DNA of 64,000 nt from Rhizobium sp. WYCCWR10014 (lineage in GTDB: Bacteria; Pseudomonadota; Alphaproteobacteria; Rhizobiales; Rhizobiaceae). The stretch is from assembly GCF_001657485.1 (NCBI RefSeq), contig NZ_LXFU01000025.1:1-64000 (forward strand). Reading direction: 5' to 3'. The number at the start of each line of letters is the position of its first letter. Position 1 is the first letter of the stretch. Positions 22,286-25,290 of the stretch are shown here, piece after piece. The translations under genes and the position numbers were made by a program. A model generated the notes under the pieces. It searched no databases and had not been told where the DNA came from. It was given only the letters and a program-made list of their open reading frames with translations.

Positions 22286-22879
22286 ATGCGGATCCTGCTG
22301 GTGCTGGCCCATCCGTTGGAGGACAGTTTCGCCGCCGCTGTGGCACGGACCGCGCGTGAGGCGCTGGAAGCGGCAGGCCATACGGTTGATCTGCTTGATC
22401 TCTACCGCGAAGATTTCGATCCGCGTCTTTCGAGGGCCGAGCGCAGCGGTTATTTCGACCAGCCCTACGATACCTCAGCCGTTGCCGATATTGTCGCCCG
22501 CCTGAAGGCTGCCGACGGCCTGATCTTCGTCTTTCCGCAATGGTGGTTCAATTTCCCCGCCATCCTGAAGGGTTTCTTCGACCGTGTTTTCGCCCCCGGC
22601 GTTGCCTTCAGCCATGATGCCGCCGGCGGCCGCATCGTGCCGCAGCTGACCAATATCCGGCTGCTCTATGCGCTGACGACGACAGGCTCACCCTGGTGGC
22701 TGGTGCGTCTCTATATGGGCGATCCGGTGCGCCGGCTCTTGAAGCGCGGCATCGCCGCCTTCTGTTCGAAGCGGCTGAATTTTCGCATGCTCAGCCTGCA
22801 CGACATGGACCGGGCCACGGATGCAAAGCGCAAGGCGCATCTCGATCGCGTGCGCAAGCTGCTATCGGCGATCCGCTAA
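22286..22879 (+). CDS. NAD(P)H-dependent flavoprotein oxidoreductase (KefF/MdaB-like)
   Basis: A 197-residue flavodoxin-fold protein. MRILLVLAHPLEDSFAAAV at the start holds the FMN/FAD phosphate loop, and LIFVFPQWWFNFPAILKGFFDRVF (about 76-99) is the signature of NQO/KefF-type quinone reductases. TGSPWWL follows near 130. It would reduce quinones with two electrons. Its start lies two bases after the xseA stop, so it is probably co-transcribed with xseA. Confidence 0.88.
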   Translation: MRILLVLAHPLEDSFAAAVARTAREALEAAGHTVDLLDLYREDFDPRLSRAERSGYFDQPYDTSAVADIVARLKAADGLIFVFPQWWFNFPAILKGFFDRVFAPGVAFSHDAAGGRIVPQLTNIRLLYALTTTGSPWWLVRLYMGDPVRRLLKRGIAAFCSKRLNFRMLSLHDMDRATDAKRKAHLDRVRKLLSAIR

Positions 22880-22880
22880 A

Positions 22881-22927
22881 GCAATTCCAGCAAAAGTGTG
22901 CGGCGGGTTTGCGTTCGGATTGCGTAA
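22881..22927 (+). repeat. Dispersed 3' palindrome, copy R1
   Basis: It starts directly after the stop of the flavoprotein gene. Arms GCAATTCC and GGATTGC enclose CAGCAAAAGTGTG and a GGCGGGTTT core. It is related to copies at 26649, 30292 and 46677. Confidence 0.7.
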
Positions 22928-23002
22928 AACAAAAGTTAGAGCATGCATGCTGGGGCATGTTGCGTCTCGGACAATGTCGCGTGCTGTGCAGCCACCCGCC
23001 CC

Positions 23003-23189
23003 CGTCCTTCGAGCCTACGGCCTATGGCCTTCGCACCTCAGGATGAGGGCTAGTCATGATGCCGTGGGGCTGGCACGCCCTTGCTCCCGGTCTTATCCTC
23101 AGGCGTGATCGGCAGTGAAGGATCACCTGAGGCACGCCCTCCCTCCAGCCTCATCCTGAGGTGCCCCGCAGGGGCCTCGAAGGACGGGG
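23003..23189. repeat. Paired palindrome element 1 (copies A and B)
   Basis: Copy A (23003-23049) begins CGTCCTTCGAG and ends CACCTCAGGATGAGGG. Copy B (23149-23189) is the inverse: CCTCATCCTGAGG, then the hairpin core GCCCCGCAGGGGC, then TCGAAGGACGGGG. A further imperfect hairpin (23091-23122, CCTCAGGCGTGATC against GATCACCTGAGG) lies between them. Total length is 187 bases. The 325-base gap 22880-23204 contains only this element and copy R1. Confidence 0.8.
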
Positions 23190-23204
23190 CTGGCCTTGGG
23201 CGGC

Positions 23205-23501
23205 TCATCCGGCTTTGACAGGCCCGCGCTTCGACAAGTCAGGCAGGGCCTCGTAATCCATTGCCATCAACGCTTCCTTCTTTCGGCGCGACCAGCCCTT
23301 GATCTGGCGCTCGCGGGCGATGGCGTCGATGATGCGGTCATAGGTTTCGGTGAAGACGAGTTCGACCGGACGTCGCTTGGCGGTATAGCCGTCATAGGTT
23401 CCGGCATTATGCTCCCAGACACGCGCCTCGATCTCCTGCTTGGTGAGGCCGGTATAATATGAGTCGTCGCTGCAGCGGAGAATATAGACGGTGACTTCCA
23501 T
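23205..23501 (-). CDS. GIY-YIG nuclease-family protein (single domain)
   Basis: A 98-residue protein that is little more than a GIY-YIG domain. The first motif is VYILRCSD with YYTGLT after it (the GIY and YIG strands). The expected catalytic Arg is in IEARVWEHNAGTY and the catalytic Glu in AIARERQIKGW. The Arg/Lys-rich helix WSRRKKEAL follows. Such UPF0213-like proteins are putative endonucleases of unknown role. It sits between paired palindromes on both sides (23003-23189 and 23567-23989), which is unusual; see the findings. Confidence 0.9.
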   Translation of the reverse strand: MEVTVYILRCSDDSYYTGLTKQEIEARVWEHNAGTYDGYTAKRRPVELVFTETYDRIIDAIARERQIKGWSRRKKEALMAMDYEALPDLSKRGPVKAG

Positions 23502-23566
23502 AGAGGGAGGCTAGCATGGTGGGTCGGCGGGCGGCAATAATGCTGGAGGTGTCTGCCACCCGCCCT

Positions 23567-23751
23567 CGTCCTTCGAGGCTCCGGCCTTTGGCCTCCGCAC
23601 CTCAGGATGAGGGCTGATCGCGGTGGCGTGTGGTGGTGGGCTGATAAAGACTCCAGCCATCCCAGGCTGATGAGCTTGCCGCTATCCTTCTGGCACGGGC
23701 TCTTCTCCAGCCTCATCCTGAGGTGCCCCGCCGGGGCCTCGAAGGACGGGG
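23567..23751. repeat. Paired palindrome element 2 (copies C and D)
   Basis: Copy C (23567-23613) reads CGTCCTTCGAGGCTCCGGCC, continuing to CACCTCAGGATGAGGG. Copy D (23711-23751) is the inverse, with core GCCCCGCCGGGGC. The pair spans 185 bases, with a 97-base spacer unlike that of element 1. It lies 66 bases upstream of the GIY-YIG start. Confidence 0.82.
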
Positions 23752-23809
23752 CTGGCCACGGCGCCTCCAGCAATGCGGGCGCTGCGGTGGGCGCGGGGCC
23801 ACCCGCTCT

Positions 23810-23989
23810 CGTCCTTCGAGGCTCCGGCCTTTGGCCTCCACACCTCAGGATGAGGGCTGATCCGTGGTGCTTGCCGCCTGGGCTAACATTTCCGGCCTGC
23901 GTTGTCGCTGCGCCTCCCTCTTGAGCCGAGCCGCCACGTCTCTCCAGCCTCATCCTGAGGTGCCCCCGGAGGGGCCTCGAAGGACGGGG
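23810..23989. repeat. Paired palindrome element 3 (copies E and F)
   Basis: Copy E (23810-23856) is nearly identical to copy C. Copy F (23948-23989) is inverted, with core TGCCCCCGGAGGGGC. The pair spans 180 bases with a 91-base spacer. Elements 2 and 3 together account for most of the 535-base gene-free stretch 23502-24036; no other gene is seen there. Confidence 0.82.
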
Positions 23990-24036
23990 CTGGCCGCACC
24001 ACCTCGTTTTATCCACTCAGCGCACGATGCTGCCGC

Positions 24037-25290
24037 TCAGGCCCATTCGCCCTGCCGCATCACCGGAACCCGCGAGCCATCCGGCTTGATGCCGTCGATA
24101 TCGACCTTGTCCGAGCCGATCATCCAGTCGATATGGATCAGGCTGGAATTACCGCCCTGCGCCTTGATCTGCTCCTGACTCAGTGTCGCGCCATCGAGGA
24201 AGCATTTGGAATAGCACTGGCCGAGCGCGATGTGGCATGAGGCGTTTTCGTCGAACAGCGTGTTGTAGAACAGGATGCCGCTCGCCGAGATCGGTGAGGA
24301 ATGCGGCACCAGCGCCACTTCGCCGAGCCGGCGCGCGCCCTCGTCGGTATCGAGCACCTTGTTCAAGACCTCTTCGCCGCGCGAGGCCTTTGCTTCGACA
24401 ATGCGCCCGCCCTCGAAACGCACCTGGATATTGTCGATCAGCGTGCCCTGGTGCGAGAGCGGCTTGGTGCTCGACACATGGCCTTCGATGCGAAGCGCAT
24501 GCGGCGTCGTGAAGACTTCCTCGGTCGGGATGTTCGGATTGCAGGTAATGCCGTTCTTGGCGGTGGAAGCGCCGCCGTGCCATTCATGTCCGTCGGCAAG
24601 TCCGATCGTCAAGTCGGTGCCCGGCCCCTGGAAATGCAGCGAGGCGAAGCGCTCGCCGTTCAGCCAGGCGGAGCGCTTGCCAAGATTGGCATTGTGCTCG
24701 GCCCAGGCGGCGACGGGATCGCTGACATCGACGCGCGAGGCGGCAAAGATCGCCTTGGCGAGCTTGGCGATCGCGATCGGTTCCGGATCGTCGGGGAAGA
24801 CCACCTTGGCCCAGGAGGGGTTCGGGTAGGAGACGATGTTCCAGTTGATGTCGAAGTTCGAGATCTTTTCCAGCGCCGGCTTGTAGGCGGTGGAGTTGGC
24901 GCGATTGGCGCGGCCGACCCTGCCGGCATCCTGCTCGGACAGCAGCATCGGATTGTCGCCGGCGACCGCAAGACGCGCCGCCCCGTTGGTATAGGCCTTG
25001 GCCATACCCTCGTAGAGCCAGCCGGAGGCGCGGTCGAAGCTCTCGTCGCTGCCATATTGATAGCGCGCCAGCGTCGTTTCCTCGTCGGAATAGAAGGCAG
25101 AGACCAGCCCGGCGCCGGCCTGGTAGGCGTGCTTGGTGATCAGGCGAACCAGCGGCAGCGCCACGACAGGCGCGGTGATCACCAGATCCTGACCTTTTTG
25201 CAGCTGCAGCCCGACCTTGATGGCGACTTCCGCAAGCTTTTCCAGCTTGACGGGATCAATTGTGTTCTGGCTCTGGGGCATGAAAGTCAT
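24037..25290 (-). CDS. M29-family aminopeptidase
   Basis: A 417-residue cytosolic metallo-aminopeptidase (AmpS/AmpT type). Metal-ligand regions are visible: SVVFPDDPEPIA-like entry near 165, PTEEVFTTPHALRIEGHV near 252-270 (Glu and His ligands), LGEVALVPHSSPIS near 325-340, HIALGQCYSKC near 365, and the final LIHIDWMIGSDKVDIDG. Length is standard for M29. AGG 7 bases before ATG 25290 supports this start; a second Met lies three codons in. Confidence 0.92.
   Translation of the reverse strand: MTFMPQSQNTIDPVKLEKLAEVAIKVGLQLQKGQDLVITAPVVALPLVRLITKHAYQAGAGLVSAFYSDEETTLARYQYGSDESFDRASGWLYEGMAKAYTNGAARLAVAGDNPMLLSEQDAGRVGRANRANSTAYKPALEKISNFDINWNIVSYPNPSWAKVVFPDDPEPIAIAKLAKAIFAASRVDVSDPVAAWAEHNANLGKRSAWLNGERFASLHFQGPGTDLTIGLADGHEWHGGASTAKNGITCNPNIPTEEVFTTPHALRIEGHVSSTKPLSHQGTLIDNIQVRFEGGRIVEAKASRGEEVLNKVLDTDEGARRLGEVALVPHSSPISASGILFYNTLFDENASCHIALGQCYSKCFLDGATLSQEQIKAQGGNSSLIHIDWMIGSDKVDIDGIKPDGSRVPVMRQGEWA

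Follow-up and report, generated by a model that had tools for sequence, protein, structure and literature searches.

A small GIY-YIG nuclease gene as the predicted enzyme partner of REP-like hairpin pairs in Rhizobium and related bacteria

We analysed a stretch of 64 000 nucleotides from Rhizobium sp. WYCCWR10014 (the window), in which a lone GIY-YIG nuclease gene lies among three pairs of inverted hairpins. This locus is probably a gene-bearing copy of a REP/REPIN-like repeat family, with a small GIY-YIG protein, rather than a RAYT, as its dedicated structure-selective enzyme. On balance, we also favour a broader reading: lone GIY-YIG proteins would be a second, RAYT-independent class of enzymes creating and maintaining REP-type repeats, one clade going with hairpins that carry a TGAG/TCGAA internal loop (type A) and another with CGTC REPs (type C), so that some widespread repeats would be non-autonomous elements of GIY-YIG loci. 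The locus and its neighbours are arranged as follows.

22286-22879, forward strand: left neighbour, flavodoxin-like oxidoreductase (Flavodoxin_2), outside the element
23003-23189: REPIN-like pair 1, hairpins 23005-23048 (reverse) and 23149-23184 (forward)
23205-23501, reverse strand: lone GIY-YIG nuclease gene of clade A, 98 aa (PF01541, E=5e-15)
23567-23751: REPIN-like pair 2, hairpins 23569-23612 (reverse) and 23711-23746 (forward)
23810-23989: REPIN-like pair 3, hairpins 23812-23855 (reverse) and 23948-23984 (forward)
24014-24036, forward strand: stretch right of the island matching locus L177, outside the element
24037-25290, reverse strand: right neighbour, M29 aminopeptidase, outside the element

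The original prediction had placed a single-domain GIY-YIG gene and three paired elements at these coordinates, and both were borne out. Pair 1 lies on one side of the gene and pairs 2 and 3 on the other. Each pair consists of a 44-nt hairpin followed by a 36-37-nt hairpin in opposite orientation, with 92-100 nt between the cores; the inner part reads GGCC...GGCC in the left hairpin and CCCC...GGGG in the right one, and TCATCCTGAGGTG...TCGAAGGA is common to both partners. As we read the sequence, a T would stand opposite GAA within the otherwise paired stem, making an asymmetric internal loop. The claim that a pair is made of two copies of the same palindrome in opposite orientation thus stands as to orientation; the partners are not identical. 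Likewise, the spacers, described earlier as unrelated, have ends partly common to the window pairs (CTCTCCAGC at the right end), and the spacer of pair 3 is similar to that of a copy on contig C14.

Scanning the window's own genome (7.44 Mb in 53 contigs) with a strict hairpin pattern gave 12 matches, six of them at the window locus, and none for the reversed control pattern, which places the palindrome pairs above chance. The six strict copies elsewhere in the genome represent the dispersal expected of non-autonomous elements. When folded as single-stranded DNA, pair 2 forms one very stable structure (z of -6.5); the isolated window hairpins are weakly stable (z from -0.3 to -3.0, four of the six above -1.5). 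An Rfam search with the threshold relaxed yielded two hits, both weak and well under their gathering scores. Another Rhizobium repeat (GCAATTCCAGNAAAAGTG...) occupies positions 22881-22945, just left of the island; its 18-mer pattern recurs in L183, L184 and L185.

To assess conservation of the hairpin, we took 107 minimal hairpins, all distinct, from the loci examined, picking them by their inner 13 nt (TGAGCYYGTCGAA) with no requirement for pairing. Stem positions 1-3 are paired in 102, 97 and 92 of these 107 hairpins, where shuffling gave at most 71, 63 and 65, and each position shows three or four pair types. Since the flanking positions pair with several pair types, the stems vary with compensation around a fixed TGAG/TCGAA. 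Partners of a pair often differ in their arms (ATCC versus ATGG); thus, the hairpin, rather than repeat identity, seems to be kept. Among 40 regions selected by visual inspection, for the most part at places with two neighbouring copies in the list, we counted 32 inverted pairs of the '-+' and five of the '+-' orientation, with spacers clustering at 27-30 nt. Nested elements, with a TGAG/TCGAA hairpin inside the loop of another hairpin, are present in L016, L019, L031, L066, L067 and L071, as if hairpin loops served as targets or templates.

These features are similar to those of REPIN/RAYT systems (REPtrons), which also have short extragenic imperfect palindromes, dispersed and often in inverted pairs; here the palindromes are dispersed and imperfect, and their extragenic position was observed in the window and at a plasmid site (see below). 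As in REPtrons, copies flank a single conserved enzyme gene and enzyme clades match hairpin classes. Unlike in REPtrons, where the enzyme is a Y1/HUH tyrosine transposase, the enzyme is a GIY-YIG nuclease, and the invariant part of the hairpin is the internal loop TGAG/TCGAA instead of a GTAG end tag. The unpaired GTAG end tag of the GTAG REP superfamily is absent from all six window hairpins; in L066, L067 and L262 the string TGAGTAG lies within the loop and is not an end tag.

A proposed check was whether genes of this subfamily are flanked by the palindrome more often than by chance, and they are, in samples of increasing breadth. A close homologue (69-100% identity) was found in 27 of 151 genomes of the family, the next-best other GIY-YIG proteins of the family having 45% identity, a 54% fragment apart. 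The hairpin or a stem-compensated variant lies beside 26 of these 27 homologues. The core motif matched directly at 20 loci; this first motif, with fixed ATCC arms and one mismatch allowed per half, missed the other seven, of which six have compensated stems (ATGG/CCAT or ATGC/GCAT) and one, L029, lies at a contig end. In a class sample of 289 genomes, a strong homologue (at least 95 bits) was present in 22, the window's own genome among them. Among 24 loci of class homologues with 54-63% identity, 17 have the hairpin at a distance of at most 200 bp, and the same scanner found a type-A hairpin at none of 24 distant GIY-YIG loci. In the 80 top-ranking entries of a longer list of named homologue loci, the strict scanner located the hairpin within 400 bp at 57. 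Adjacent windows of 250 bp contain 111 hairpins in 155 windows versus 10 in 1673 windows located more than 1 kb away; per non-coding kb the enrichment is 24-fold.

A dependence of the palindrome on the gene is suggested at the level of genomes as well. At least one hairpin copy was found in 21 of the 22 class genomes with the strong gene versus 23 of the 267 without it (Fisher 9e-19, a test which, like the next one, treats genomes as independent and ignores shared ancestry). By a stricter pattern with a fixed outer stem, the hairpin is present in 19 of 27 family genomes with the gene and in 17 of 124 without it (Fisher 1e-8); this pattern undercounts, as G033, G064, G041 and G147 score zero despite flanking hairpins. 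The hairpins being near-universal with the gene and rare without it, hairpin populations seem to be gene-dependent. The highest copy numbers are 279 (G336), 163 (G358) and 70 (G350 and also G050). Some genomes have hairpins and no strong clade-A gene (13 copies in G051, 9 in G119, 27 in G272 and 25 in G255); they may require loss of the gene, a missed or divergent gene, an incomplete genome or a source in trans.

One could think of such genomes differently. If older host or selfish repeats were moved by something else, a homing-like GIY-YIG endonuclease could have invaded and cut them and would have come to lie between copies of its target. Homing endonucleases commonly contain GIY-YIG domains, and the group I intron endonuclease model TIGR01453 is a sub-threshold match for a clade-B protein (see below). 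The many different gene contexts, and the hairpins in 23 of 267 genomes without the strong gene, would suit such a parasite, but the same comparison, with hairpins in nearly every gene-bearing genome, points to gene-dependent populations; moreover, the window gene lies between pairs, not within one hairpin, and 15 of the 20 hairpin-bearing genomes examined gave no Y1 transposase. We consider this explanation unlikely and retain the reading of a repeat family with its own GIY-YIG enzyme.

Beyond these samples, a TGAG/TCGAA hairpin was found near seven of 44 loci from two other phyla, a weaker link in which the phyla are inferred from MAG titles, with misbinning possible; long inverted repeats of a different sort are present at some of the remaining loci. 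The C-terminal tails of several clade-A proteins (L038, L043, L044, L046, L048, L050 and L052) are seemingly encoded by the adjoining hairpin, e.g. ..HPSTGSG, ..PELVEG and ..FDKLRT. In genome G333, which gave no GIY-YIG match at E<=1e-8, we saw a hairpin variant, TCATCCTGAGCGAAGTCGAAGGATGA, in eight copies counting a close variant; this is possibly a further enzyme/hairpin pairing.

The distant loci L072-L095, with type A at 0 of 24, were at one time taken as negative controls and were dropped from this role, being themselves bracketed by other arms in 11 cases. The bracket test assumes no sequence: it takes inverted arms of at least 20 bp located within 300 bp on both sides of a gene. None of 135 pseudo-positions were bracketed, versus 11 of the 24 distant loci, and many of the arms read CGTCAT...ATCCAG or similar, which is the layout of CGTC REPs. 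Among the distant loci at family level, L033-L035, all without type A, two (L033 and L034) are bracketed by arms of 22 and 35 bp.

To characterize the two classes we reduced 248 loci to 228 distinct genes (yhbQ apart), 158 assigned to clade A, 62 to clade B and eight to neither. Type A is near 86 clade-A genes and type C near seven; for clade B the respective numbers are zero and 28. In background windows, type A and type C occur in 6 and 12 of the 574 around A genes and in 2 and 4 of the 135 around B genes. Arms of at least 20 bp bracket 84 of 155 clade-A genes versus 2 of 574 pseudo-positions, and 30 of 62 clade-B genes versus 0 of 135. Per non-coding kb, type A has a density of 7.29 near A genes and 0.30 far from them (type C, 0.29 and 0.52), and type C a density of 4.82 near B genes and 0.52 far from them (type A, 0 and 0.05). 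The strict hairpin scan is negative for about half of the genes of clade A and of clade B. In a FastTree phylogeny of 215 proteins (13 of the 228 genes, short or interrupted, were left out), A and C labels change three times, none of 200 shuffles giving fewer than 31 changes, and one clade of 135 proteins (support 85) contains 110 of the 112 A labels and none of the 40 C labels; five proteins have other labels and 58 none, and some labels come from the bracket-arm motif where the hairpin scan was negative. The second clade thus sits between hairpins of another class, and enzyme clade and hairpin class correspond.

The window's own genome carries clade-B genes too: G000:C24:252012-252281 (L004) is bracketed by CGTC-type CGTCATCCTCGGGCTTGTCCCGAGGATCT, G000:C16:31357-31635 (L001) has a CGTC pair just upstream, and the third, on C45, has neither a bracket nor a CGTC hairpin. 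Of the ten clade-B paralogues in genome G273, seven have a CGTC hairpin within 300 bp, the variants differing from one another; the clade-A gene of this genome has no type-A hairpin. In the available parts of Di Nocera et al. 2013 (PMC3733652), CGTC REPs are defined by a CGTC tag, a stem of 8-9 bp starting with AT and a CCA-type tail. Clade-B loci show this layout (GTC tag, stem and CCA-type tail), as in CGTCATCCTCGGGCTTGTCCCGAGGATCT or in CGTCATCCCCGCGAAGGCGGGGATCCAG of L092; the tag with a perfect 8-bp stem is present at 28 of 62 loci, the tail being assessed by eye. Many clade-B genes, the one on C24 included, are thus bracketed by GTCAT...ATCCA-type hairpins like the CGTC-tagged REPs of that paper, as far as its available parts describe them. 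The window hairpins are a separate class, as they have CGTC at the outer end (CGTCCTTCGAG) without a stem starting with AT and without the CCA tail. The same parts of PMC3733652 state that a dedicated transposase of CGTC REPs is apparently missing and suggest that the enzyme vanished, was replaced, or that many transposases serve; the term GIY-YIG has no occurrence in PMC3733652. The REP-like layout with a GIY-YIG protein in place of RAYT, as originally proposed for one locus, recurs in at least two enzyme/hairpin pairings, and the proposal of a repeat family with its own GIY-YIG partner, supported by association, specificity, covariation, dispersal and presence or absence at sites, turned out to be wider than stated.

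We looked for the Y1/RAYT family, PF01797, in 20 genomes chosen for having the hairpin, not all of them complete. It was not found in 15, which are 86-100% complete and include the window's own genome and G178, which is a single contig and has 35 hairpin copies; a flanked Y1 (RAYT) gene, which is the mark of REPINs, is accordingly missing from the window's own genome. At the 13 Y1 loci of the other five genomes the TGAG/TCGAA hairpin was observed in no case. On these two counts RAYT involvement was rejected. That a RAYT or some other transposase moves the hairpins, with the GIY-YIG gene as cargo, has in its favour a layout like that of RAYT/REPtron loci, as outlined in the accessible part of Bertels & Rainey 2011, but besides being at odds with the results for Y1, the transposase family searched, it would leave the matching of enzyme clade and hairpin class unexplained; we regard it as very improbable.

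We then turn to presence and absence of the elements among relatives, which the original prediction proposed to compare and which does vary. Single-linkage clustering of the genes next to 104 clade-A loci gave 53 clusters (this set, like a 103-locus bracket set, counts some genomes twice). The M29 gene is present in 59 of 60 Rhizobium genomes, and of 30 stretches left of this gene (both flanking genes found in 10; the other 20 covering ∼1.5 kb left of M29) only the window's own contains the GIY-YIG island. In L177 an EamA transporter gene fills the island's place, and L178, L180 and L181 align likewise; the L177 counterpart of window positions 24014-24036 lies near the 3′-end of this EamA gene, which the island replaces. 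At the orthologous intergenic site of L179 we observed a decayed right-hand hairpin and an EamA 3′ tail, the latter recognized by eye; L179 is likely to be a remnant of the element, the nuclease gene being absent.

An intergenic site of Rhizobium plasmids, covered by ten records, contains zero, one or two hairpin pairs:

L217-L219: no pair, 12-19 bp
L206, L214 and L215: one pair
L212, L213, L216 and L220: two pairs

Two R. phaseoli strains have two pairs at this site and a third strain has one. A 23-bp direct repeat (GCAAGAARCAAGRTYGGAGCGTG or near it) borders the plasmid REPINs (L206, L212-L216 and L220) and, together with the duplicated plasmid units, may reflect tandem duplication. Only three plasmid records encode a GIY-YIG relative at E<=1e-12. 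Empty and filled sites between relatives are therefore seen both at the plasmid site and at the chromosomal island. A target-site duplication was not detected in any of 37 pairs, direct repeats in the flanks being no longer than in shuffled sequences. In being dispersed and non-autonomous, with inverted ends, the elements are like MITEs and IS elements; they differ from them in this lack of a target-site duplication among the 37 pairs and in having hairpins, not simple terminal repeats, as ends.

The nuclease gene is under strong purifying selection (dN/dS of 0.02-0.09 in 10 of 11 pairs, one being saturated), and its 3′-end often runs into a palindrome. Along with a weak similarity to the Slx1 fold (see below), these observations could be explained by a regulatory or housekeeping role with no mobility, in which the hairpins serve for autoregulation of the nuclease gene, or form cruciforms that the nuclease resolves, and dispersal is due to ordinary recombination. 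However, the dispersed copies, which in some genomes number from dozens into the hundreds (G336 and G358 being the extremes), the empty and filled plasmid sites and contexts that differ among genomes make this quite improbable, and we return to the reading in which the GIY-YIG protein would act on a dispersed repeat family.

The window protein matches PF01541 with 56 bits versus a gathering cut-off of 22.6, and has no match in PHROGs, PADLOC or NCBIfam. Columns Y6, Y16, R27 and E64 are invariant, and we take them to be the catalytic residues. Its AF2 model (pLDDT 92) has 1ZG2 and 1YWL (UPF0213) as the best PDB matches, both strong, and a weak fold match to Slx1 (E of 0.008). The protein is thus like the Slx1/UPF0213 (YhbQ-type) group in fold and in conserved GIY-YIG residues; unlike it, the E. 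coli relative yhbQ has no bracketing hairpins. Slx1 cuts branched DNA and needs Slx4, and we know of no link between Slx1 and repeats. The modelled similarities fit a predicted recognition of hairpins or cruciforms.

The system that we predict would work as follows. Through the TGAG/TCGAA loop, the GIY-YIG enzyme would recognise the hairpin, be it an extruded form or single-stranded DNA of the lagging strand, and would cut one strand at the loop, compare the distantly similar Slx1 on branched DNA. GIY-YIG enzymes hydrolyse DNA and, to our knowledge, do so with no covalent intermediate; spread of the released or broken hairpin pair would therefore rely on host repair or ligation, which would leave the REPIN pairs as non-autonomous passengers that depend on the GIY-YIG locus.

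Among other short repeats, RIME of rhizobia are palindromic intergenic elements, and so are Bru-RS1 and Bru-RS2 of Brucella (∼103-106 bp), which we liken to the present elements by description alone; the descriptions available in part mention no enzyme, unlike the window system. Among the matches listed in a search of open-access literature, none connects GIY-YIG genes with these repeats; with subscription papers and preprints outside its scope, priority is unproven. The words 'nuclease' and 'transposase' do not occur in the accessible part of the RepRanger paper (PMC12306157), nor does 'nuclease' in that of the Bradyrhizobium REP paper (PMC5082802).

The analysis names a candidate enzyme for CGTC REPs, for which none had been found previously, and points to an invariant internal loop within a covarying stem as the likely recognition element, so that the question can be put to the test using short oligonucleotides and a protein of 98 residues. 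If true, there were at least two origins of REP-type repeats, with enzymes unrelated to each other, in one case a tyrosine HUH transposase and in the other a hydrolytic nuclease. A hydrolytic nuclease alone cannot join DNA; a different way of spreading must then exist. We suggest the GIY-YIG family as the missing partner of some widespread short bacterial repeats.
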